Shown: piece after piece, positions 2,270 through 25,255 of the stretch
Position numbering within the stretch: the first letter of the stretch is position 1
Layout: every line of letters begins with the position of its first letter
Source of the DNA: Clostridiales bacterium
GTDB taxonomy: Bacteria > Bacillota > Clostridia > Oscillospirales > Oscillospiraceae
DNA: 64,000 nucleotides
NCBI GenBank assembly: GCA_022785125.1
Contig: JALFRA010000036.1
Span: 1 to 64,000 of the forward strand
Reading direction: 5' to 3'
Program-made: the position numbers and the translations under genes
The notes under the pieces: model-generated
What the model was told of the DNA's origin: nothing
The model's database searches: none
Seen by the model: only the letters and a program-made list of their open reading frames with translations

Positions 2270-4567
2270 TTATTCCGCAGTAATGGTAACGGTCCCCGAC
2301 CAGTCGGTGCGGTAGATCTGGCATCCGTGCTGGGACAGCCGGGCCAGAGTCTCCGCCGCCGGGTGACCGTAAGTATTGTATCCAACTGATATAACAGCCC
2401 ATTCCGGCTGAATGGCCTGGAGCAATTCGTCCGACGAGGCGTATTTGGAGCCGTGGTGGCCTGCTACCAGCAGCTCTGTGTCCGGCAGGTCTCCGTATTT
2501 CACCAGCCGTGCCTCCACCGTGGTATCCATATCCCCCGTGATCAGAACGTCAAAGTCCCCTGCGCTGCCCAACACCGACAGACCTTCTTCATTGCTGCCG
2601 CCGCCGCCCAGGGGCGGGTAGATCTTTAGACTCGTCTCTCCAAGCTCGGCGGTGGCCCCGTCGGTAATCAAGAGCATTTCCACTCCATGGGCTTGTGCGG
2701 CAGTCTCCACCTCTGCCCGCAGGGTACTGTCCGGCTCCACGTCAGGCAGGATCAGCAGTCCCACGTCCATCCGCTCCAGTAGTTGAGGAATTCCGGATGC
2801 GTGGTCGTCGTGATAGTGGGTGAGGATCACCAAGTCGATGTGGCTCAGGCCCAGGGACTGAAAGTAATCCGCAGCGGTATTTCCCGCGTCGTAGCCGCCG
2901 CAGTCAACCAGAGCGGTCTGCCCCTGGGAATAGAGGGCTACGCTGAGGCCCTGACCCACATCCAGCACCGATACGGTGAGCCTTCCGCCGGTGAGGGCGG
3001 CGGCCTGAAGGACCAGTGCGCCGCATAGGGTGGACATACTGAGACACAACGGTACCACCACCCGCCCTCTGGGGCCTCGCCAAAGCACCCACAGAAAGAT
3101 AAGTCCATAGGTCAGAGCCATCCACAGAATCAGATAGATGGAATGGACAGCCACCGAGGCAAAGGGCAGGCCCGCCAGGGCAGCGGTGAGCCACTGGAGA
3201 TACCATACCGGCAGGGAAACCACCCAGGCCATCACCGTGGCCACGGCAGGCAGCACAAGTCCCACCAGCGCCGTCACCAGTCCACCCAGGAAGGCATCGG
3301 ACACCGCCCACAGAGAGAGCAGATTGGCAAAGGGTGAGATGAGCGTTACACTGCCAAAATAGAAGGCCATCAGAGGCGTGGTGAACACAATAGCCCCCAA
3401 CGTGGTGGCAACAGTGGCGATCATCACCCGGGCCCCCCGGCAGCCCAGCCTGGGCCAGAAGCCCTTGGGCTTGCGGGGCAGTCTGCCCTCCCACTTCTCA
3501 CACAAAGGCCCGGTAAACAGAAAGATACCGGCCACGGCGGCAAAGGACAGCTGAAGCGATACACTGGCGGCAGCATAGGGATTGACTGCCAGCAGTATCA
3601 TCAGCACGGCGCTGAGGCTGGTAGGCGGATCATTCTCCCGGTCCACCAGCGGGGCAATCAGGAGCAGGGCCTGCATCAACGCCGCCCGCTGGACCGAGGG
3701 GGTGTTGCCCGCCACGGCGCTGAAAAAGAAGAGCAGGCAGATGCTCACCACCGCCGACAGCCGCCTGCGGCGGCCCAGTAGAGTGGTGATCAGTCCGGCC
3801 AGGAAGGAGACATGGAGGCCGGAGACCGCGATCACATGGGCCAGTCCGGACCGGCGCAGGGCGCTGTACACCGCCTCAGGCAATTCCGTCTTGTCTCCCG
3901 TCAGCAGCGCGGTAACCAAAGGCGCGGTGCTGTCCGGAACGGCCCGGTCCACGCTGTCCTTCAGTGCCCCGCTGAACAGGGCGGGCCAGCAGCCCACCGG
4001 AGCCCGTTCCGGCCGTTCCGCCGTCCATTCCTTGCCGCCGCTGCCGATGAGGAGTACCCCTTTGGCATAATAGTAGCTGGTGGCCTCCCCCGCCATAGTG
4101 TCCGCCATGCGGAAGGAGGCGGTCACTGTCAACCGGTCGCCGGGCCGCAAGTCCGCGGCCTCCTCCCCGTTCAGGTAGAGCAGGGTCTTGGCCGGACTTC
4201 CATCATTCCCATAGACCTCTGCCATAACAGAGGTGCTGTAACTATTCTCCTGAGGCCAATCGGTGACCAGAGCTGTAACCGTTGTCTCTGTGCCGTTCAG
4301 CCGCAGCGCAGGTACCCGTACCAGAGCGCAGTATACCCCCGTCCAGCACAGGCCCGCCGCCAAACCGAAGCAGATCAGCAGCGTCCGCAGGCGGACTTTG
4401 CCCCGAAGGAACAGTCCGGCCAGGGCCGCCAATCCACAGCACGCCCCCGCCGGTATCAGTACGGCCTCCGGCAGCAGATAAACCGCCAGAAACACCGCGC
4501 CGGAAAAGGCGGCGGCAAACCAGGCCAGCTTACGCATAGGGCATCTCAGCCAGGATGAACTGAACAT
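2270..4567 (-). CDS. comEC: ComEC/Rec2 family DNA-uptake channel with metallo-beta-lactamase domain
   Basis: This 765-aa multi-pass membrane protein has the ComEC layout: N-terminal membrane segments, a DUF4131-like extracellular region, the competence domain (around VIAVSGLHVSFLAG, residues about 245-480), and a C-terminal metallo-beta-lactamase fold with ILTHYHDDHASG. In competent bacteria ComEC transports single-stranded DNA across the membrane. The C-terminal domain is thought to act as a nuclease. The start is uncertain: 4567 has a GAAGGTGA-like site upstream, while an internal ATG at 4537 begins MRKLAWF. No other competence gene is in the window. Confidence 0.9.
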   Translation of the reverse strand: MFSSSWLRCPMRKLAWFAAAFSGAVFLAVYLLPEAVLIPAGACCGLAALAGLFLRGKVRLRTLLICFGLAAGLCWTGVYCALVRVPALRLNGTETTVTALVTDWPQENSYSTSVMAEVYGNDGSPAKTLLYLNGEEAADLRPGDRLTVTASFRMADTMAGEATSYYYAKGVLLIGSGGKEWTAERPERAPVGCWPALFSGALKDSVDRAVPDSTAPLVTALLTGDKTELPEAVYSALRRSGLAHVIAVSGLHVSFLAGLITTLLGRRRRLSAVVSICLLFFFSAVAGNTPSVQRAALMQALLLIAPLVDRENDPPTSLSAVLMILLAVNPYAAASVSLQLSFAAVAGIFLFTGPLCEKWEGRLPRKPKGFWPRLGCRGARVMIATVATTLGAIVFTTPLMAFYFGSVTLISPFANLLSLWAVSDAFLGGLVTALVGLVLPAVATVMAWVVSLPVWYLQWLTAALAGLPFASVAVHSIYLILWMALTYGLIFLWVLWRGPRGRVVVPLCLSMSTLCGALVLQAAALTGGRLTVSVLDVGQGLSVALYSQGQTALVDCGGYDAGNTAADYFQSLGLSHIDLVILTHYHDDHASGIPQLLERMDVGLLILPDVEPDSTLRAEVETAAQAHGVEMLLITDGATAELGETSLKIYPPLGGGGSNEEGLSVLGSAGDFDVLITGDMDTTVEARLVKYGDLPDTELLVAGHHGSKYASSDELLQAIQPEWAVISVGYNTYGHPAAETLARLSQHGCQIYRTDWSGTVTITAE

Positions 4568-16861: not shown

Positions 16862-17944
16862 TTACAGCACGCCCTTGCGGACGTTGACCACAAAATCCTG
16901 CACGTTGGTGACGATGGTGCGTACCGACAGACTGCCCCGGTCCCGCAGCTTGTTCACCGCAAACTCGGAGATGTCCACCGAGTAGAAGTACACCGGGCGC
17001 ACCACCCCGTCCACCACCCGGTAGGAGGGGGTCATGTTGCCGGTGGCCACCGTATGGAGGGTGGAGGCCATGCAGATGACAGTGGTGGCATTTTTCACCA
17101 GAGCCCGCATGGCGTCCTGGCCCTCATACACGTTGCCGTACACCTCGGGCAGGGGACCGTCATCCCGGACGGAGCCCACCAGTACAAAGGGCACATTGTG
17201 GTTGACACATTCGTAGATGATGCCGTCTTTCACCTTGCCGGAATGGACAAAGGCGGCGGTGGACCCAGCCAGCCGGACGGCGTTGATGGTGTCAATGTGG
17301 TGATAGTGGCCGTTAGGCATACTCTTCTGGGTGTAGATGTCCTGACCCAGGGCAGTGCGGAGATAGCCCGCCTCCAGGTCGTGGGTGGCCAGGGCGTTGC
17401 CCGCCAGCAGGCCGTGGACATAGCCCCCCCGCACCAGAGCGGCGAAGGCGTCCCGGGCGTCATGGTCAAAGGCGCAGGCCGGGCCCATGACCCACAGGAT
17501 GCGCCCGTGGTCCTTCTCGTGGCGGAGCAGCTCATAGATGGAGTCGTAATCCATGGAGTAGGCGGTCTCCCGGGAGCGGCCCTGACGGAAGGAGAAGGTC
17601 TCCTGCTCCCCTTTTTCCGTCTCAAAGCCATCGGCGTGGATGTAGATACCCTCCGAGGCATCCTCCGTCCGGCCTACCACCACCGGCTCGCCCTCTTTCA
17701 GGTTGCGGAACTCCACCACGGCGATCTTGCCCTCCCGCAGGACGGCCACACAGTCCATGCGGCTCTCCTCGGCCAGCAGCCATTCTCCGTTGACCTTGAA
17801 ATACTCCGGGAAAATACTGGTGGCATGATAGCCTTCAGGCGCCACACCGGCCCGAGGGGCGGGGCAAAAGGTTACGCTGGGGGCGTTCTGGAACACGGGC
17901 TTGGTAAAATCAGGGGCATGATACTCAGGCAGCACAAAGCTCAT
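16862..17944 (-). CDS. TIGR00300 / LOR-SDH-domain protein (archaeal-type ornithine cyclodeaminase-like)
   Basis: This 360-aa protein matches the TIGR00300 family, related to the C-terminal part of cyanobacterial arginine-degrading enzymes and to a Methanococcus ornithine cyclodeaminase. Recognisable parts are the N-terminal YFKVNGEWLLAEESRMDC block, a central GPACAFDHDARDAFAALVRGGYV block, and a Rossmann-like C-terminal half with SMPNGHYHHIDTINAVR. Family assignment is firmer than the reaction. The start at 17944 has AAAGGAG upstream. It lies 74 bp past the sigG 3' fragment. Confidence 0.75.
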   Translation of the reverse strand: MSFVLPEYHAPDFTKPVFQNAPSVTFCPAPRAGVAPEGYHATSIFPEYFKVNGEWLLAEESRMDCVAVLREGKIAVVEFRNLKEGEPVVVGRTEDASEGIYIHADGFETEKGEQETFSFRQGRSRETAYSMDYDSIYELLRHEKDHGRILWVMGPACAFDHDARDAFAALVRGGYVHGLLAGNALATHDLEAGYLRTALGQDIYTQKSMPNGHYHHIDTINAVRLAGSTAAFVHSGKVKDGIIYECVNHNVPFVLVGSVRDDGPLPEVYGNVYEGQDAMRALVKNATTVICMASTLHTVATGNMTPSYRVVDGVVRPVYFYSVDISEFAVNKLRDRGSLSVRTIVTNVQDFVVNVRKGVL

Positions 17945-18018
17945 GGGGATCAGAACTCCTTTCCGTCGTTTTGTCCCCTTCATTGTATCATGACCGTTTC
18001 TTCTCCGCAATCGGTTCT

Positions 18019-18509
18019 TTAAAGATCCTTTTTCATGCGGTTAATTGCACTTTTTTCCAGCCTGGAGACCTGAGCCTGGGAGATCCCCACCTCGGCGGAT
18101 ACCTCCATCTGGGTCTTGCCCTCAAAAAAGCGCATCCGCAGAATCCGTTTCTCCCGGTCGGTGAGCCGCTCCATGGCCTCCTTCAGGGCAATGTGTTCCA
18201 GCCAGCTCTCGTCGGTGTTTTTGGAGTCCTTCACCTGGTCCATGACGCAGATGGTATCTCCACCGTGTTCGTACACCGGCTCGTAGAGGGACACCGGATC
18301 CACAATGGCGTCGAGAGCAAATACCACGTCCTCCCGCTTCAGTTCCAGCATCTTGGCGATCTCCTCCATACTGGGCTCCCGCTGGTGCTCGTTCATAAAC
18401 TTCTCCTTGGCCTGGAGCACCCGGTAGGCGGTGTCCCGCATGGACCGGGACACCCGGAGGGAGGAATTGTCCCGAAGATATCGGCGGATTTCCCCAACAA
18501 TCATCGGCA
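18019..18509 (-). CDS. sigG: sigG 3' fragment: SigG regions 3-4, detached from its N-terminus
   Basis: This frame encodes the C-terminal part of the forespore sigma factor SigG. It starts VGEIRRYLRDN (region 3.0), continues through RVSRSMRDTAYRVLQ and PVSLYEPVYEHGGD, and ends with the region 4 HTH (GKTQMEVSAEVGISQAQVSRLEK). It lacks region 2. The frame opens at an ATG (18510) at the junction with no properly spaced RBS, so it is probably not translated on its own. About 159 residues lie downstream of the junction repeat. Regions 1-2 lie 6.4 kb away at 24.9-25.2 kb in the same orientation. Excision of the intervening DNA would fuse the frames exactly. Confidence 0.93.
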
Positions 18510-18530
18510 TGATGCTGCCATTAGGGAAAA
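18480..18530 (-). repeat. attL-like junction: 10-bp core plus element left arm
   Basis: The 10-bp core TGCCGATGAT (minus strand; plus 18500-18509) is shared perfectly with 24907-24916. The next base on each side differs, so the repeat is exactly 10 bp. Outside lies sigG (TGTTGGGGAAATCC on the minus strand). Inside lies the element arm ending in GGGAAAA (plus 18524-18530), which reaches to within 5 bp of the recombinase stop codon. Confidence 0.85.
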
Positions 18531-18534
18531 TCCT

Positions 18535-19929
18535 CTATGAGTCCGCTTCGTGCTGCAAAAAGGTGTAGTAGATCTCCACTTTGGGTCCCTCCACCACAAT
18601 GCGCTCCACGCAGTCCCGGATCACCGCCTGCCGCTCCTCCGGGGTGAGATTGGGCCAGCTGTCTTTGATGCCGGCCGCCTGCTCCCGCAGGTCCTCCATC
18701 CGGGCGGCCCGGCGGCAGGTGGCCTGCTCGGTCTCATAGTCCTGCCGCAGGATCTCCAGCTGCCGGCGCACCTCCCGCACCTCGTCCAGCAACACCGGGT
18801 CCTCCCCCTCGGCAAAGAGCTGGTAGAGCCGCCGCAGCTTGCTCTCCAGCTTGTCCATCTCTCCCTCCAGCTGGGTCAGGGGATCGGGGACGGGGTCGGC
18901 CTCTTGCCCCAGCCGGGCGGACACCCGGAACAGGTCGTGAAGCACCTGCTCCTCCAGTTCCTCCGCCCACACCGCCTCGGCCTGGCAGTTGTCGCCCTTC
19001 TTCATGTGGGGCTTGGAGGGGTCCCGGCCATAGCAGCGCAGCTTATAGCCGTTCTTGCCCCAGCGGATGTATCGCATCCGGGCGCCGCAAGCGCCACAGT
19101 ACACCAGTCCGGTGAGCAGGTGGCCCCCTCCGGCGGCCCGGCGCCCAGAGGCCCGCTCCCTCATCCGGTCCTGCACCAGATAGAACAGTTCCTCGGGCAC
19201 GATGGGCTGGTGAAGGCCCTGGTACTCCTCCCCCTTGTAGGAGATGAGGCCGATGTTGCTCTTGCGGGTGAGGATCTGGGTCACCAGCTTGTCGTATTTC
19301 AGCCCCATTCTGTTTGCGATCCGCTGGGCGGACCACCCCTTCAGGTAGAGCTCGTACATCTGCCGTACCCGGGGGGCGTCTGCATTGGGTACCAGGATGC
19401 CGGTACTCCGGTCGTAGTCGTAGCCGAAGGGCACCCCGCCGCCCCCCATCCAGTAGCCCTGTCGTACCCGCTCCACCATGCCCATCCGGGTACGCAGGTA
19501 GATGTTTTCCCGCTCCAGCTGAGCAAAGGCGGACAGGATACCGATCATGGCCCGCCCGTAAGGGGTGGAGGTGTCAATGCTCTCATTAAGAGAAATAAAA
19601 TCCACTCCGTGGGGCAGAAATACGTCCTCAATGAGATAGAGGGTATCCTTCTGGCTCCTGGACAGCCGGTCCAGCTTGAACACCACCACCGTGGCCACCT
19701 GCCCGCCCCGGGCGTCGGCGATGAGCCTGGTCATCTCCGGCCGGTCCAGATTGCTGCCGCTGTAGCCGCCGTCGGTGTAACAGCGGTAGTTGTCCCACCC
19801 CATAGCCTTGCAGTAGGCCTCCAGCCGCTCGGTCTGAGCCTGGATGGAGTAGCCCTCCTCCGCCTGGGCCTCGGTGGACACCCGGATATAGAGGGCCCGC
19901 AGGGGCTGGTTTTCCACAAGTTCCGTCAT
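18535..19929 (-). CDS. Large serine recombinase of the sigG-intervening element
   Basis: This 464-aa protein has the SpoIVCA/phage-integrase layout. The catalytic resolvase domain begins ALYIRVSTEAQAEEGYSIQAQ (nucleophile Ser about residue 18, in RVST) with FKLDRLSRSQ and the FAQLERENI helix. A recombinase domain follows (PFGYDYDRST, about 150-240), then a zinc ribbon (CGACGARMRY plus later Cys residues), a coiled coil (about 355-425) and a short tail. The start at 19929 has CAGGAGAG upstream; a longer upstream frame lacks support. The stop codon lies about 25 bp from the core repeat. It is the obvious candidate enzyme for excision and integration at sigG. Confidence 0.93.
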   Translation of the reverse strand: MTELVENQPLRALYIRVSTEAQAEEGYSIQAQTERLEAYCKAMGWDNYRCYTDGGYSGSNLDRPEMTRLIADARGGQVATVVVFKLDRLSRSQKDTLYLIEDVFLPHGVDFISLNESIDTSTPYGRAMIGILSAFAQLERENIYLRTRMGMVERVRQGYWMGGGGVPFGYDYDRSTGILVPNADAPRVRQMYELYLKGWSAQRIANRMGLKYDKLVTQILTRKSNIGLISYKGEEYQGLHQPIVPEELFYLVQDRMRERASGRRAAGGGHLLTGLVYCGACGARMRYIRWGKNGYKLRCYGRDPSKPHMKKGDNCQAEAVWAEELEEQVLHDLFRVSARLGQEADPVPDPLTQLEGEMDKLESKLRRLYQLFAEGEDPVLLDEVREVRRQLEILRQDYETEQATCRRAARMEDLREQAAGIKDSWPNLTPEERQAVIRDCVERIVVEGPKVEIYYTFLQHEADS

Positions 19930-20005
19930 GTTTCTCTCCTGATGCTGTGTCATGGGGTCCATTGTACCGGATTGTCCCCGTCCGCCGCAATTCCTTTTTC
20001 TGGTA

Positions 20006-20131
20006 TTACCGTTTCCGTCCTCTGGCTCTGGCCTGTCGCAGCAGGCGGACCAGCACCGGATTTTCCACCTGCTGGGGCGGCAAATCCTTGCCGGATACCG
20101 GCTTGCCATTCACATAGCGTTGTACTTCCAT
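20006..20131 (-). CDS. 41-aa basic protein upstream of the recombinase (candidate directionality factor)
   Basis: This short frame begins MEVQRYVNGKPVSGKDL and ends in a strongly basic tail (RLLRQARARGRKR). A good GGAGG lies 8 bp before the ATG. It precedes the recombinase by 76 bp on the same strand, after the terminator of the cargo operon. I do not recognise a family. Its size, charge and position fit a recombination directionality factor or recombinase accessory protein, but that is inference from context. Confidence 0.65.
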   Translation of the reverse strand: MEVQRYVNGKPVSGKDLPPQQVENPVLVRLLRQARARGRKR

Positions 20132-20180
20132 AGTATCGCCTCCGCTTTCAGTGTGCCCGCTTTTGTCAGAAGGCAGACAA

Positions 20181-20210
20181 AAGGACCTGCCGTTTTCACA
20201 GCAGGTCCTT
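20181..20210 (-). terminator. Terminator of the AOR cargo operon
   Basis: A perfect 10-bp stem AAGGACCTGC / GCAGGTCCTT has a 10-nt loop. The minus strand continues TTTTGTC. It separates the thiF-like gene from the 41-aa gene and recombinase, so the latter probably have their own promoter in 20132-20180. Confidence 0.82.
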
Positions 20211-20213
20211 CCA

Positions 20214-20930
20214 TTAACATATTCCGCAGACGGGGCAGCCCGTGCCCCGCTCCACCGGCACACGATCCAGCTCCAGCCGCTTGCCGTCATAGAGCAACAT
20301 CTCTCCCGGAATGGGGTTGTGCCCCAGCAGCATCTGGAGGGCAACGGTAGCCATCAGGGAGGCCACCGCTCCGGTAACTGCCCCCAGGGCCTGACCGTCC
20401 TCCTCCGGCGCAGTCCCGGCATAGCAGCAGGCTAAACAGGGAGTTTTTCCAAACTCCACCGCCATCACCGAGCCGTACCAACCCTCTACCCCGCCGTTGA
20501 CCAACGGAATGCGCTTCTGAGCGCAGGCGGCATTGAGGGCCAATCGTGCAGGCAGGTTATCCACCGCCGCCACCGCCAGCTGGCAGTCCGCCAGCAGCTC
20601 TGCCCCCTTTTTCTCGTCCAGCCAGGCCTCCATCCCCTCCACCCGTAGGTCCGGGTTAAAGGTGGACAGCCGCCGGGCGGCCGCCGCCGCCTTGGGGCGG
20701 CCCAAGTCGGCCTGGTCAAAGAGGAACTGCCGGTTCAGGTTGCTGAGGGATACGATATCCCCGTCCACCACCACCAGCCGGCCCACTCCGGCACCAGCCA
20801 GGGCATAGAGCAGCGGGCCCCCCAGGCCCCCGGCTCCCACCACCAGCACCGAGGAGGACGCCAGCTTCCGCTGGCCCTCCGGTCCGATCTCCGGGATGGC
20901 CAGCTGCCGTCGGTATCGCTCCAGTTCCAC
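20214..20930 (-). CDS. HesA/MoeB/ThiF-family adenylyltransferase
   Basis: This 238-aa E1-like enzyme has the nucleotide-binding VVGAGGLGGPLLYALAGAGVG loop, the VDGDIVSLSNLNRQFLF motif and two CxxC-type zinc pairs (CLACC about 166, CPVCGIC at the C-terminus). It activates the C-terminal Gly-Gly of a ubiquitin-like sulfur carrier. The carrier gene (MoaD-like) lies 9 bp upstream, so this pair probably feeds sulfur to the pterin cofactor of the adjacent oxidoreductase. GGAGG precedes a GTG start. Confidence 0.88.
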   Translation of the reverse strand: MELERYRRQLAIPEIGPEGQRKLASSSVLVVGAGGLGGPLLYALAGAGVGRLVVVDGDIVSLSNLNRQFLFDQADLGRPKAAAAARRLSTFNPDLRVEGMEAWLDEKKGAELLADCQLAVAAVDNLPARLALNAACAQKRIPLVNGGVEGWYGSVMAVEFGKTPCLACCYAGTAPEEDGQALGAVTGAVASLMATVALQMLLGHNPIPGEMLLYDGKRLELDRVPVERGTGCPVCGIC

Positions 20931-20939
20931 AGCACCCTC

Positions 20940-21188
20940 CTAACCGCCGCCGCACACGGGGATAAACTCCACCACGCTGTCCGGTCCCGTGGGGGTGCGG
21001 AAGCCCTTCTCCGCCCCGGCGGAGCGTTTGTCCACAATGATGTGGCTCCGCTTGGCCAGCCGGTAGACCTCAGCTCCGCGGCGCTTTTTGATTTGATCCA
21101 GCAGCCGGGACACGTTGGTCCCGTCCATTGGTTCCTCCCGGCAGCCGGTAAGGTCTGCCAACCGGCCGTGATAGCGCACCAACGCCAT
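20940..21188 (-). CDS. MoaD/ThiS-family sulfur carrier protein
   Basis: This 82-aa beta-grasp protein ends in VEFIPVCGGG, the C-terminal Gly-Gly needed for adenylation and thiocarboxylation. It starts one base after the AOR stop codon, with GGAGGGG as RBS. MoaD-like proteins beside AOR genes are thought to serve tungstopterin synthesis. The downstream ThiF-like protein is its expected activating enzyme. Confidence 0.85.
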   Translation of the reverse strand: MALVRYHGRLADLTGCREEPMDGTNVSRLLDQIKKRRGAEVYRLAKRSHIIVDKRSAGAEKGFRTPTGPDSVVEFIPVCGGG

Positions 21189-21189
21189 A

Positions 21190-23088
21190 TTATCCCCCCT
21201 CCGGCAGGGGGATGCCCAGGTGCTTCAGCCGCTTGGCGGTGGGCACGCCGCGGGAATCCCAGCCCCGGACCTTGTAATATACCGGCAGCATCTTGTCCAG
21301 AGGCACCACGGTGTCCGGCCGTTCCGGGTCCTGAGGCGTCTTGGTGAGCCGTCCGGGCAGAGCGTCGTCCGCCGCCGTCAGACCCTCCCGCAGATTGTAC
21401 AGCCGCTCCACATTGTAGCTGCGCTCCCCCACGGTGAAGAATTTGCCGATGGTCATGGGCAGGCCGGTGACCAGAGAAATGGACTTGCTGTGGGGCACCA
21501 GCATACAGTTGATGGGCATGATCCAGGGCATAAACTTCCAGATTTGACCCAGCAGGGGCCGGGCGGACAGCATCACCTTGCCCGCCGCCCGGCAGGCAAA
21601 GCTGGCAGGTCCAAATTTGAACAGGATGCCGGGGATCATGGCCTGCATGGTGAACAGGCAGAACCCGGCGGCGGAGGCCGCTTCCATGCCGTTCTGGAAG
21701 AACACCGTTAGTTCCGGCTTGCCCTTGGGGGTCTGGGCGTCCATGCTGATGACGCCCACCGACTCCAACAGGGCCAGATAACCGCCATTCAGATGACAGC
21801 CGCCCCGGTTGGCAGTGGCGTAGCCCAGACCCATGCCTACGCTCTTCCGGGGCTCATAGGCCGCCAGCTCCAGCCCCTTGGCGTGGATGGCAAAGTCGAC
21901 TCCGCCGTACTTCTCGCTCAACACCTTGCTGCCCACCGCCAGTTCTCCGGCGGGGCCACGGCGATAGGCCACATCCTCCACTACTCGGGGCAAGTCGTCG
22001 GGCTGGCCCGGCTTCAGGCCGAAATCACCCATTCCCTTCTCCTGAAGTTCCATGGCAAAGGCGATGGTGCCCGCCAGGGAGATGGTGTCCATGCCCAGCA
22101 GGTCGCACTTGTAGTTGAGTTCATTGATGAGGTCCAGGTCCCGGTTCTCCAGGTTGGGTCCAAAGAGGCCCAATGTCTCGTACTCCGGCCCCTTGACCTC
22201 CTTGCCCTTTACCTTCACACGCCGCTCACAGCGGATGGGGCAGCTGACGCAGCCGCTGTTCCGGGTGAGCCTGGTGTCCGCCAGAGTCTCGCCGCTGACC
22301 TCCTCGTAGTGCTCGTACCGGCCCCGGGTGAAGTTATGGGTAGGCAGCACGCCGGAGGCGTTGGCCTTGCTCACCAGGCCCGCTGAGCCGTACCGGGGCA
22401 GACTGTCCCCGGTCATGGGGTGCTTTTTCAGCAGCTTGACCCACTTGCGGGTGTGGGCCTCGAAGCCCTCAGGGTTGTCCTTTACAACCTCCCGTGTGCC
22501 GAAGGCAATGACTGCTTTCAGATTCTTGCTGCCCATGACCGCCCCGGCGCCGCAGCGCCCGGCTACCCGCTCGCCGCTGGCGGCGCAGGCAAAGCGCACC
22601 CCGTTCTCTCCGGCGGGGCCGATGACCAGCTTGCCATACCGCTCCGGCAGCTCCTCCTGGGTGCGTTCGGTGTCCAGGCCCTGGAGCTGGGGGCAGGCCT
22701 CGATGCGGATCTTGCCGTCCTCCACCACCACCATACTCAGCTCCGGGGCCTTTCCGCACAGGATAAGCCCGTCAAAGCCCGCCTTTTTCAGCAGCATCCC
22801 GAAGGGTCCGCCGCAGTTGGAGGAGGCGATACCGCCGGTGAGGACGTTTTTAAAGGTCATATTGAACCGGCTGGAGCTGGGGGCGCCGGTGTCGTTCATG
22901 GGTCCGGTGTTGACGATGAGCACCGCCTCCCGGCTGAGGGGGTCCAGTCCCGCCGGGGTCAGATCGGTAAGCAGCCGGGCCCCCAGGGCCTTGCCTCCCA
23001 GATATTGCTCAAACAGTTTGGCGGAGATGGTACACTTCCGCCACCGCCCATTTGTCAGATCCACTTGGGCATAGACCGGCAGGATCAT
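21190..23088 (-). CDS. Aldehyde:ferredoxin oxidoreductase (tungsten-pterin enzyme)
   Basis: This 632-aa protein has the AOR N-terminal domain (ARLLTDLTPAGLDPLSREAVLIVNTGP, then the SSNCGGPFGMLLKKAGFDGLIL pterin-binding region). The 4Fe-4S motif CVSCPIRC lies in the middle, with a later Cys in ATANRGGCHLNGGY. AOR oxidises aldehydes to acids with ferredoxin, or runs in reverse. The start at 23088 overlaps the polyferredoxin stop (ATGA), so upstream frame extension is rejected. The expected aldehyde could come from the Fe-ADH upstream. Which aldehyde is used cannot be told. Confidence 0.9.
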   Translation of the reverse strand: MILPVYAQVDLTNGRWRKCTISAKLFEQYLGGKALGARLLTDLTPAGLDPLSREAVLIVNTGPMNDTGAPSSSRFNMTFKNVLTGGIASSNCGGPFGMLLKKAGFDGLILCGKAPELSMVVVEDGKIRIEACPQLQGLDTERTQEELPERYGKLVIGPAGENGVRFACAASGERVAGRCGAGAVMGSKNLKAVIAFGTREVVKDNPEGFEAHTRKWVKLLKKHPMTGDSLPRYGSAGLVSKANASGVLPTHNFTRGRYEHYEEVSGETLADTRLTRNSGCVSCPIRCERRVKVKGKEVKGPEYETLGLFGPNLENRDLDLINELNYKCDLLGMDTISLAGTIAFAMELQEKGMGDFGLKPGQPDDLPRVVEDVAYRRGPAGELAVGSKVLSEKYGGVDFAIHAKGLELAAYEPRKSVGMGLGYATANRGGCHLNGGYLALLESVGVISMDAQTPKGKPELTVFFQNGMEAASAAGFCLFTMQAMIPGILFKFGPASFACRAAGKVMLSARPLLGQIWKFMPWIMPINCMLVPHSKSISLVTGLPMTIGKFFTVGERSYNVERLYNLREGLTAADDALPGRLTKTPQDPERPDTVVPLDKMLPVYYKVRGWDSRGVPTAKRLKHLGIPLPEGG

Positions 23089-23513
23089 GCTCCCACCCCT
23101 TCCTTCATGGTGATGGCCCCAATGCCGCAGGCCCGGGCGCACAGACCGCAGCCCACGCATTTGTCCGGAGCGCTCAACTGGGCAAATACCTCCAGATCCC
23201 CTTTCTGCCGGGGCAGGCTGATGGACAGGCAGGAGAAGCCGCAGGCAAGCACGCACATGGAGCAGGCGGTACACAGCTTGGTGTCGATGATCGGTCTGGG
23301 CCACGTTTCCTTGGGCACCTTATGGCTGTAGAGGCCGGGCAGAGGCCCCTCAATGGCACCCCTGGGGCACACCCGGCCGCACACCCCGCACTGGGTACAG
23401 CGGACGGGATCGATGGTATGTACCTGCTTGACCGTTCCGGTGATGGCCCCCACCGGGCAGCTTTTGGCGCACAGGGTACAGCCCACGCAGTTTTCTGTGA
23501 TCTGGTACGGCAT
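23085..23513 (-). CDS. Polyferredoxin with four 4Fe-4S motifs
   Basis: This 142-aa protein contains four CxxCxxCxxxC motifs: CVGCTLCAKSC, CTQCGVCGRVC, CTACSMCVLAC and CVGCGLCARAC. It has no membrane segment. It is the likely electron acceptor/donor for the AOR encoded immediately downstream with a 4-bp overlap. AAGGAGG lies 8 bp before the ATG at 23513. The fusion-like doubling of a two-cluster ferredoxin is typical of AOR partner subunits. Confidence 0.9.
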   Translation of the reverse strand: MPYQITENCVGCTLCAKSCPVGAITGTVKQVHTIDPVRCTQCGVCGRVCPRGAIEGPLPGLYSHKVPKETWPRPIIDTKLCTACSMCVLACGFSCLSISLPRQKGDLEVFAQLSAPDKCVGCGLCARACGIGAITMKEGVGA

Positions 23514-23541
23514 CCAGATCCCTCCTTCCCGCATCATAGAA

Positions 23542-23569
23542 AAGCCCGCCCCGCAGCCGGGGCGGGCTT
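23542..23569 (-). terminator. Terminator after the Fe-ADH gene
   Basis: A 12-bp perfect stem AAGCCCGCCCCG / CGGGGCGGGCTT has a 4-nt loop and is followed by TTTTCT on the minus strand. Only 28 bp separate it from the polyferredoxin start, so downstream cargo genes depend on read-through or a promoter overlapping the hairpin. Confidence 0.82.
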
Positions 23570-23581
23570 GACTGCCTGAAC

Positions 23582-24784
23582 TCAGGCCTCTTCCTTGGCG
23601 CACACCGCCTCCATCAGCTTGCGGGCGTGCTCCCGGGTAAAGTACCGGGGCACAGGATAGGTGCCGTGGCACTCCTGGAAGGCCATGTCGATCACCTCCT
23701 CGATGGCGGAGGCGGGGAACTTTTCAAACCGGGTGGGAATGCCCATCTGCCGGTTGAGCTTGTAGAGCAGCTTCACAAAGCGGGTGGCCTTGATCTGGTC
23801 GCTGTCCCCCGGCATCCCCAGCTTGAGCATCCGGCCCAACTCGGCAAACTGCTTACTACATACAGGCAGGTAGTAGCGCATGATGTGGGGCAGCAGCACC
23901 GCGTTGGCCAGACCGTGGGGCACGCCAAACTTGCCGCCGATGGTATGGGCAAAGGCGTGGACGTAGCCCACATAAGTACGGGTAAAGGCCATACCCGCGA
24001 AGAAGGAGGCGGTGAGCAGGGCCTCCCGGCCCTCCAGATCGGCGGGGTCCTCCTGGACCTTGGGCAGGTACTGGAAAATGAGCCCGACGGCAATGCGGGC
24101 CTGGCGGTCGGTCTCCTCGTCAGCATAGCCCGCCACATAAGCCTCCAGGGCGTGGGTCAGGGCGTCCAGAGCGGTGTGGGCGGTGGTGTGCTTGGGCAGG
24201 CCCACCGTCAGCTCCGGGTCCAGAATGGCGAACATGGGCACCAGCTTGGGGTCAAGCAGCTGCTTTTTGCTGTGTGTGGCGGAGTCCGAGATGATGGCGG
24301 CCACGGTGGTCTCGCTGCCGGTACCGGCGGTGGTGGGCACCGCGATGAGGGGCAGGGGCCGGCGGCGCACCTTCAGCATCCCGGCCAGGGCCTCGGCGCT
24401 GGTGTGGTTGGCCACGGCGGCGGCTACTGCCTTGGCGGTGTCCATCACCGATCCGCCGCCCACCGCCACCACCGCGTCGCAGCCGGAGCAGGCCTTTTTG
24501 GCCTCAGCCACGATGGCAAAGGTTGGATCGGGCTGCACCCCGTCATACACAACATGGTCCACGCCCGCGCTCCGGATGCTCTCCTCCACCCCGTCCAGCA
24601 GGCCGGACTGGTGGAGGAAGGAATCTGTGATCACCAGCGCCTTCTTGGCGCCCAGCATGCCCAACAGGCGGCCAGTTTCCCTGGCCCGGCCCGGCCCAAT
24701 GTAGGTCACAGGTGTAGGTTTGCTGACAATTTTGATGACCGGTTTGCGCACGGCCACGCTCAGCTTTGACATGGTGGTATTCAT
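23582..24784 (-). CDS. Iron-containing alcohol dehydrogenase
   Basis: This 400-aa protein of the Fe-ADH family has the NAD-binding VAVGGGSVMDTAKAVAAAVAN motif and the metal-ligand region HAFAHTIGGKFGVPHGLANAVLLPHIM with spaced histidines. It interconverts alcohols and aldehydes. With the downstream AOR and ferredoxin it would form an alcohol-aldehyde-acid route linked to NAD(P)H and ferredoxin. GGAGGAGAGG precedes the ATG. It is the first cargo gene after the right end of the element and has its own sigma-A promoter. Confidence 0.92.
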   Translation of the reverse strand: MNTTMSKLSVAVRKPVIKIVSKPTPVTYIGPGRARETGRLLGMLGAKKALVITDSFLHQSGLLDGVEESIRSAGVDHVVYDGVQPDPTFAIVAEAKKACSGCDAVVAVGGGSVMDTAKAVAAAVANHTSAEALAGMLKVRRRPLPLIAVPTTAGTGSETTVAAIISDSATHSKKQLLDPKLVPMFAILDPELTVGLPKHTTAHTALDALTHALEAYVAGYADEETDRQARIAVGLIFQYLPKVQEDPADLEGREALLTASFFAGMAFTRTYVGYVHAFAHTIGGKFGVPHGLANAVLLPHIMRYYLPVCSKQFAELGRMLKLGMPGDSDQIKATRFVKLLYKLNRQMGIPTRFEKFPASAIEEVIDMAFQECHGTYPVPRYFTREHARKLMEAVCAKEEA

Positions 24785-24831
24785 AAGGTCCTCTCCTCCC
24801 GACCGCCCACGCTCCGCGGTTTGTTTTCTTT

Positions 24832-24860
24832 ATTTTACCACCAACCTACTCAAGAATCAA
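24832..24860 (-). promoter_or_regulatory. Sigma-A promoter for the element's Fe-ADH
   Basis: TTGATT (24860-24855), a 17-bp spacer and TAAAAT (24837-24832) lie 48 bp before the Fe-ADH start. The site is inside the element's right end, so cargo expression does not depend on sigG transcription. Confidence 0.7.
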
Positions 24861-25196
24861 GATTCTGAAACCTGGAGTTTGAATTTTAGTTTTCCCCAAA
24901 ATGCCTATCATCGGCACGCCGTAGGTGGAAAAACGCACGTCCAGATCGGTGTTAAAATTATCAATGGCTTTGATGAGTCCGATACACCCCACCTGGAACA
25001 GATCGTCGGCGTTCTCCCCCCGACCGGAAAACTTCTGGATCACCGACAGCACCAGGCGCAGGTTGCCTGCGATGAGCTGCTCCCGGGCCTCCATGTCCCC
25101 CTGTTTCACCCGCCGGAGCAGTTCCATGGTCTCCTCGTTTTTCAGTACCTTCAGCTTTGCCGTATTGACGCCGCAGATCTCAACCTTTCCCTGCAT
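24846..25196 (-). CDS. sigG: sigG 5' fragment: SigG regions 1-2 with a 19-aa element-encoded tail
   Basis: This 116-aa frame starts MQGKVEICGVNTAKLKVL, a typical SigG N-terminus, with AAGGAGG 8 bp upstream. It contains intact region 2 (NLRLVLSVIQKFSGRGENADDLFQVGCIGLIKAIDNF, then VRFSTYGVPMI). At residue 97 the homology stops and 19 residues encoded by the element follow before a stop codon. Without regions 3-4 this product cannot recognise promoters as a full sigma. Residues 1-97 plus the 159 residues of the other fragment give 256 aa, close to the 260 aa of B. subtilis SigG. No frameshift or stop is seen in either half. Confidence 0.93.
   Translation of the reverse strand: MQGKVEICGVNTAKLKVLKNEETMELLRRVKQGDMEAREQLIAGNLRLVLSVIQKFSGRGENADDLFQVGCIGLIKAIDNFNTDLDVRFSTYGVPMIGILGKTKIQTPGFRILILE
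24890..24935 (-). repeat. attR-like junction: 10-bp core plus element right arm
   Basis: The core TGCCGATGAT (minus; plus 24907-24916) is identical to 18500-18509. Outside is sigG coding for FSTYGV. Inside is the element arm AGGCATTTTGGGGAAAAC (minus strand). The arm's GGGAAAA mirrors the TTTTCCC of the other element end, as expected for attP half-sites. Confidence 0.85.
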
Positions 25197-25226
25197 GGCC
25201 CCTGCCTCCTTCTCTTTGTCTGTGTT

Positions 25227-25255
25227 CAGTATGTCCCCGGCGGTTTCTTTCATAC
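25227..25255 (-). promoter_or_regulatory. Forespore (SigF/SigG-type) promoter of sigG
   Basis: GTATG (25255-25251), a 17-bp spacer and CATACTG (25233-25227) fit the SigG consensus GHATR-N17/18-CATnHTA with one mismatch. GGACATACTG also fits the SigF -10 consensus GGnnAnAmTR. The site is about 30 bp before the sigG start codon. B. subtilis sigG is transcribed by SigF and autoregulated by SigG, so position and sequence agree. Confidence 0.6.

Follow-up and report, generated by a model that had tools for sequence, protein, structure and literature searches.

Several elements that interrupt sporulation genes have been described, and the published statements cited here and below follow extracts of the papers named. 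The skin element of Clostridioides difficile is integrated by its recombinase alone, and a directionality factor is required for its excision (PMC5025042). The SP-beta prophage lies in spsM of Bacillus subtilis, where a phage-encoded serine recombinase restores the split sporulation gene (PMC4191935). Additional intervening elements include gin in gerE, which is without phage genes (PMC5595907), vfbin in spoVFB, yin in yabG (PMC5595907, PMC10747680), and vrin in spoVR (PMC4191935). The published rationale is that such elements sit in mother-cell genes, since the genome of that cell is discarded (PMC4191935, PMC5025042). The Listeria comK prophage is excised in a regulated manner in a non-terminal cell, i.e., by active lysogeny (PMC5025042). 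The present analysis concerns sigG in a contig of a Clostridiales bacterium (JALFRA010000036.1, positions 1 to 64,000; this whole stretch of 64,000 nucleotides is referred to as the window), where the gene is divided by a 6,407-bp element that encodes a large serine recombinase. SigG is the forespore sigma factor, and the original prediction, made from the letters of the window, regarded its interruption as a new class of target. This view gains support from the interrupted sporulation genes that we found in the literature, which, as far as the extracts go, are mother-cell genes, genes rearranged in the mother cell, or genes under SigK control. Searches of PMC, outside which most subscription journals and all preprints lay, yielded no account of sigG being interrupted.

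The two halves of sigG lie on one strand of the window, and the recombinase gene ends beside one of them:

25196..24912, minus strand: sigG exon 1, codons 1-95, ending in STYGVP (open reading frame (ORF) reading; ratio of nonsynonymous to synonymous substitution rates, dN/dS)
18504..18019, minus strand: sigG exon 2, 161 codons plus stop, MIVGEIRRYLRDN...KKDL (ORF reading, dN/dS)
18535..19953, minus strand: large serine recombinase with the invariant Ser in an RVST motif (Pfam Resolvase 1e-40, Zn_ribbon_recom, Recombinase; alignment)

The break falls in the Pro95 codon, after which the N-terminal reading of exon 2 is MIVGEIRRY. The repeat TGCCGATGAT is found at 24916..24907 and 18509..18500, a spacing of 6,407 bp, and a conceptual join of the halves across it gives YGV-P-MIVGEIRRY and a protein of 256 aa. 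The coordinates, when re-read, agree with the original prediction that the halves lie 6,407 bp apart on one strand, and reading across the repeat reproduces the in-frame 256-aa SigG that it had foreseen. The large serine recombinase that it had placed beside a junction does end there, with a stop codon at 18537..18535, about 25 bp from the repeat; a Shine-Dalgarno-preceded ATG at 19929 may be an alternative start of this gene. The solved structures that match the recombinase include the TP901-1 and A118 integrases, and A118 is the comK phage. In addition to the recombinase gene, the element contains a microprotein gene and an aldehyde-oxidoreductase/alcohol-dehydrogenase cassette. A second, intact sigG elsewhere, with no excision junction ever detected, had been named as the finding that would speak for a decayed insertion; none was found in the own genome of this bacterium (2.97 Mb, 99.76% complete). 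The next best match there has 33% identity over 158 residues, and one further short match has 47% over 59 residues; thus, a spare sigG was dropped as a candidate.

The comparison of related genomes for intact and split sigG, as the original prediction had proposed, was made with 20 genomes of the Flavonifractor group (own genome included), which are called the genus here. The gene is split at the Pro95 codon in 11 of the 20 and intact in nine, and a related recombinase (E <= 1e-60) is present in 11/11 split and 0/9 intact genomes. The halves are co-directional in eight of the 11 split genomes, the own genome being one of them; seven of these eight direct-type genomes carry the cassette of about 6.4 kb, and G016 carries the alcohol dehydrogenase, the microprotein, and the recombinase only. 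In the other three (G006, G010, and G011), the two exons are on opposite strands and enclose a GntR-type gene and the recombinase; the invertible segment measures about 3.7 kb in each. The sequence adjoining the exon-1 break in these inverted genomes is the one found beyond gntR in G018, so a flip of the 3.7-kb segment would make sigG whole and also recreate the gene arrangement seen in G018. G020 was considered as a contig broken inside sigG; however, its contig ends overlap with differences of a few bases (by eye), which were read as strain variation around an unbroken gene. Separately, a second recombinase, about 40% identical to that of the window, occurs elsewhere in the genomes of the split congeners G004:C12 (L056), G005:C57 (L054, L077), G007:C47 (L055), and G016:C27 (L057). 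G003 has a second full-length sigG-like gene (G003:C167:2787-3551), 80% identical, beside an intact one at 89%, which represents contamination or a paralogue.

Both exons are under strong purifying selection. The median dN/dS of the 11 split genomes is 0.043 for exon 1 and 0.047 for exon 2, the corresponding values of the nine intact genomes being 0.055 and 0.119, and no in-frame stop was found in the split exons of 11/11 genomes. The genes of the element have the following medians: recombinase, 0.164 (11 genomes); alcohol dehydrogenase, 0.135 (8); aldehyde oxidoreductase, 0.075 (7); and microprotein, 0.186 (7). All 11 split genomes group together, with an ultrafast bootstrap of 100, in a sigG tree that also contains the nine intact and four outgroup genomes, and the split has been maintained vertically in the genus. 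The SASP family, which in B. subtilis includes a gene under SigG control (PMC8270828), is present in 20/20 genus genomes. Selection, tree, and SASP together indicate that sigG is in use and that the split is old.

Beyond the genus, a scan with the recombinase alignment, limited to one genome per species, confirmed 192 relatives, of which the best 80 are counted here. Their hosts include Flavonifractor, Agathobaculum, Butyricicoccus, Lachnospiraceae, Defluviitaleaceae, and Oscillospiraceae. A sigG half lies in the fetched flank of 70/80 related recombinases, and in 60/80 (Clostridia), the recombinase ends within 100 bp (<=100 bp) of the sigG break. Fifty of the genomes behind these loci were searched whole, and 43 of the 50 contain both halves and no intact copy. 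Among 21 further genomes, 17 have an exon-2 half that starts at residue 88-94, and two have an exon-1 half only. In an even sample of the class, 120/156 genomes have a match at E <= 1e-50, and the match begins at the break codon in 6/120, own genome included; some genomes of this sample appear identical to genomes from the recombinase scan.

Both junctions were compared in 56 genomes, i.e., the 11 of the genus, 43 of the 50 searched whole, and G023 and G058. The halves stand in excisable order on one contig in 15/56, around inserts of 0.4 kb to 170 kb, are inverted in 3/56, and lie on different contigs in 37/56. In 10 of these 37 two-contig genomes, the halves must be more than 50 kb apart whichever route is taken, and in G058 the lower bound is only 0.2 kb; in G161 (Agathobaculum sp. 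Marseille-P7918), the halves are at least 256 kb apart. The 3.2-Mb contig of G165 (Agathobaculum massiliense) carries exon 2 and then exon 1 with 112 kb between them, an interval that has no N runs and whose ORFs, from a reading of the ORF list, look like ordinary chromosome. The same ORF (MLFCNIDLLDE-type, probably an amidohydrolase, judged from its sequence) lies beyond the exon-1 break at L295, L255, L256, L258, L261, and L265, and also at L267, L268, L269, L292, L297, and L300; its presence at twelve exon-1 loci suggests that the halves have long been far apart in the Agathobaculum/Butyricicoccus group. A further arrangement is found at L262 (G183), where an insert of about 0.4 kb without a long ORF splits sigG and a related recombinase lies elsewhere in the genome (L178); this insert is perhaps a mini-element served in trans.

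The junction comparison defined two attachment (att) sites in the window:

24890..24933, minus strand: exon-1-side attachment site, central CC at 24914-24913 (junction comparison)
18488..18530, minus strand: exon-2-side attachment site, central CC at 18507-18506 (junction comparison)

In 56/56 paired junctions, the exon-1 side has CCN as codon 95 and the exon-2 side has an in-phase CCN-ATG. The element lies within the reading frame of a sporulation gene, and its precise removal would restore that frame, every one of the 56 pairs being in phase. Chance is excluded, since the same codon is split in 11/20 genus genomes and all junction pairs keep the phase. The central CC is common to all 56 pairs, and the third base of the codon agrees in 44/56. 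The 10-bp repeat of the original prediction is present at both breaks as described but is not the core, since only the CC is shared throughout; its remaining letters stem from the att arms. The sites of the window element are in direct orientation, with a short core and inverted repeats, and the element-side arms form an imperfect inverted repeat centred on the CC. Arm pairing within a genome has a mean of 13.38/20 compared with 10.61/20 across genomes (standard deviation 0.26, maximum 11.52, 500 shuffles), a conservative test because kinship of the genomes raises the cross-genome value. The arms thus co-vary within genomes, as expected of paired att sites.

Phages carry a like site, in the form of a matching attP. 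On the viral contigs L206-L209 (63-148 kb), an att-type palindrome stands right after a related recombinase, with 14 to 20 of 20 positions paired, and the 170-kb insert in sigG of G181 (Lachnospiraceae) is a prophage with terminase, tape measure, tail proteins, DNA polymerase, and integrase (PHROGs). These palindromes and the prophage indicate that the sigG site is used by phages, to which the window element is best regarded as a related resident. A sigG half itself occurs at 1/49 loci on viral contigs (L205). On L207, a 114-kb phage contig, a near-perfect palindrome of the sigG att type (20/20, about 3410-3460) is followed by an MTRK-type ORF, as seen by eye.

The remaining genes of the window element, apart from the microprotein gene, form its cargo:

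20214..20930, minus strand: MoeB/ThiF-family adenylyltransferase (Pfam ThiF 7e-67)
20940..21188, minus strand: MoaD/ThiS-family sulfur carrier (Pfam ThiS 9.6e-7)
21190..23088, minus strand: aldehyde ferredoxin oxidoreductase (Pfam AFOR_N and AFOR_C; dN/dS 0.075 in 7 genomes)
23085..23534, minus strand: 4Fe-4S ferredoxin (Pfam Fer4)
23582..24784, minus strand: iron-containing alcohol dehydrogenase (Pfam Fe-ADH)

A Pfam scan found no phage structural family among the seven ORFs of the element. The gene downstream of sigG (16862-18010 of the window) matches the model NF052526 of a nickel-pincer-nucleotide-dependent ornithine cyclodeaminase.

The microprotein and the promoter-like elements bear on how the recombinase might be controlled:

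20006..20131, minus strand: gene of a 41-aa RY(I/V)NG microprotein, directly upstream of the recombinase (similar ORFs at other loci, alignment)
25226..25255, minus strand: promoter-like element of sigG, GTATGA-N16-CATACTGA (alignment of 19 upstream regions, 11 split and 8 intact)
20148..20178, minus strand: promoter-like element upstream of the microprotein, GTCTG-N18-CACACTGA (alignment; weak statistical support)

The microprotein, whose start pattern is M..(R/K)(Y/F)(I/V/L)N(G/N) and whose gene stands just upstream of the recombinase in the window, is taken as the likely candidate for the directionality factor of the element. An ORF of this kind precedes the recombinase at 41/101 loci by a first search and, under stricter rules, at 39/66 genome loci and 1/35 viral loci (L204); a true microprotein-type ORF is present at L189. 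The 2.5-kb element of G187 is composed of an MTRKQ-type protein, the microprotein, and the recombinase, with no other sizeable ORF seen. MTRKQ-starting proteins of about 160-225 aa begin at the att site, on its side facing away from the recombinase, in several genera (L188:8874-9428, L301:1916-2530, L284, L290, and L260). As a candidate for the directionality factor, this family was set aside, its evidence being one sub-threshold HNH_repeat match in Pfam, nothing in NCBIfam, and nothing useful in PHROGs; no member appears among the ORFs listed for the window element, to which the search for it in the own genome was confined. The sigG promoter region is conserved between split and intact species, and its element is presumably of the sigma-F/sigma-G type, going by the consensus. 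In the eight direct-type genomes of the genus, conserved blocks also precede the microprotein gene at a constant position.

We consider it probable, on the strength of these sequence comparisons, that sigG is restored in a skin-like manner under the control of the recombinase, which is the best reading of the locus. The original prediction had read the element as skin-like and restorable in frame, and the missing second sigG, the purifying selection, the paired att arms, and the recurrence all speak in its favor. It had not foreseen the inverted or far-apart halves of some relatives, nor the phages with this target site. Since sigG is stored in two pieces, each with half of a matched recombinase site, many gut Clostridia probably must cut and rejoin their own DNA in the spore-forming cell. 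The proposed mechanism is modeled on C. difficile skin; recombination in vivo, its timing and cell, the role of the microprotein, and reinsertion are inferred. Large serine recombinases need no partner in the attP x attB direction. The window segment would be a resident element, passed on vertically and related to phage-type integrating elements, with a recombinase directed at the Pro95 codon of sigG. Its division into two pieces would keep sigG off during growth. In sporulating cells, the directionality factor, probably the RYxNG microprotein, would be made, and the recombinase would join the two att sites at the central CC, which would free a 6,407-bp circle and rejoin sigG in frame to give the 256-aa forespore sigma factor. 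After germination, the recombinase alone would break sigG again. In the three inverted congeners, the same reaction would flip the 3.7-kb segment with no loss of DNA. The place of action of sigG is the forespore, so the genome that is rearranged must be the one passed on, and the long vertical persistence of the element would then imply that the spore retains the circle and that the circle is reinserted.

Several observations weigh against this reading. Excision in the forespore would remove the element from the germline unless it were reinserted, and reinsertion is a proposal. No rejoined sigG was found in any genome with both halves, although assemblies would hide a rare form, and no circle junction was found among the fetched loci, where one pattern was used to look for it. 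No sigG half lies in the fetched flank for 10/80 related recombinases. In the whole-genome searches, the exon-1 half was not found in 6/50 genomes (G150, G151, G158, G162, G174, and G195, exon 2 only) and the exon-2 half in 1/50 (G198, exon 1 only); G153 has a second, partial exon-2 match, and no exon 1 was found in G064 and G069. Among the 21 further genomes, G351 has a related recombinase yet an intact sigG, and G354 has neither form of sigG at the cut-off. Outside the genus, the recombinase does not always adjoin a half: the split genome G058 has no related recombinase at E <= 1e-60, and in G183 and G197, the recombinase adjoins neither half. The microprotein was not found upstream of the recombinase at 27/66 genome loci. 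Furthermore, the B. subtilis-type sigma-F consensus precedes the microprotein at 11 of 12 positions in only 3/48 loci (shuffled 1.0%); the same consensus occurs in 17/48 upstream of sigG exon 1 (shuffled 0.9%) and in 0/48 inside the recombinase gene. A looser regular expression upstream of the microprotein gives 5/48 against a shuffled mean of 0.9 and maximum of 3. This consensus was thus dropped as proof of sporulation control and is only suggestive.

The weak promoter evidence is one ground for a random phase switch, in which the recombinase would join or invert sigG stochastically at low frequency during growth, leaving few sporulation-competent cells and no developmental timing. The invertible arrangement of three genomes and the absence of the rejoined form from assemblies also fit it; however, only the broken state is seen in the 11 split genus genomes and 43/50 others, which a free-running switch need not produce, although a minority form could escape consensus assemblies. 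Blocks are also conserved before the microprotein gene, and we regard such a switch as unlikely. Bacteria do possess two-protein sigma factors, SigO/RsoA being such a pair, and the halves of SigG could be translated separately and then assemble without any rejoining of DNA. Both halves are conserved even when far apart, and an ATG stands just before the break in 39/76 distinct exon-2 junctions, as this idea would have it. Against it, a ribosome-binding motif precedes exon 2 in only 3/76 of these junctions compared with 44/61 for exon 1, whose starts were picked near the aligned first residue (shuffled 1.8%), which, as a test on sequence only, argues against two separate proteins. The exon-1 extensions past the break vary freely, the att arms on both sides co-vary, and a related recombinase accompanies 11/11 split genus genomes; two separate proteins are thus very improbable.

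Still more improbable is a decayed insertion in lineages that lost sporulation, to which the six genomes lacking an exon-1 half and the internal stop in the recombinase of G064 might point, since dN/dS is 0.04-0.05 in both exons with the frames open in 11/11 and SASP is kept throughout the genus. Assembly error deserves hardly any credence: the assemblies are drafts, but the same break recurs in dozens of separate ones with different inserts. Beyond skin-like restoration of sigG as such, we tentatively advance a wider proposal, which we hold to be somewhat short of evenly balanced, i.e., that in several families of Clostridia, the forespore sigma gene is broken during growth, rebuilt in the founder cell, and broken again after germination, as a reversible germline switch that employs a recombinase shared with large phages and proceeds by excision, inversion, or, in lineages such as Agathobaculum, chromosome-scale rearrangement.

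A conserved split of sigG would break the mother-cell-only rule and raises the question of whether bacteria can, once in every spore cycle, rearrange the genome that they pass on and then restore it. Such a split could help to account for the rarity of sporulation in culture among some gut Clostridia that have sporulation genes, and it may point to a sporulation-gated phage latency. In addition, the system offers a large set of natural integrase/attB pairs and a candidate directionality factor.

Among known systems, skin in sigK of B. subtilis and C. difficile resembles the sigG case in that an element with its own serine recombinase gene interrupts a sporulation sigma gene in frame. However, sigK is a mother-cell gene and its excision is confined to a terminal cell, whereas sigG acts in the forespore, and the halves are inverted or far apart in some sigG relatives. 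Thus, the sigG element would work like skin but is not filed as a skin element, because its target acts in the forespore and not in the terminal mother cell. SP-beta may be likened to the 170-kb prophage in sigG of G181; however, SP-beta is excised in the mother cell only and stays in the spore genome, whereas for sigG to be used, rearrangement would have to take place in the spore genome itself. The gin, vfbin, vrin, and yin elements lie in other genes, with mother-cell or SigK-controlled expression, and yin is described, in the extracts cited above, as unique to one strain, whereas the sigG split recurs across many genera. Compared with active lysogeny, the 6.4 kb of the window element hold no phage structural family and the target is a developmental sigma gene; in G181, the insert is a prophage. 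Serine-recombinase inversion switches, which usually flip promoters, resemble G006, G010, and G011 in having halves in opposite orientation around the recombinase, whereas the sites of the window are direct. Unlike such switches, the sigG system combines a large serine recombinase with sites of the attL/attR type that lie within a coding sequence, and there is a fair chance that its inverted and far-apart arrangements should be classed separately.

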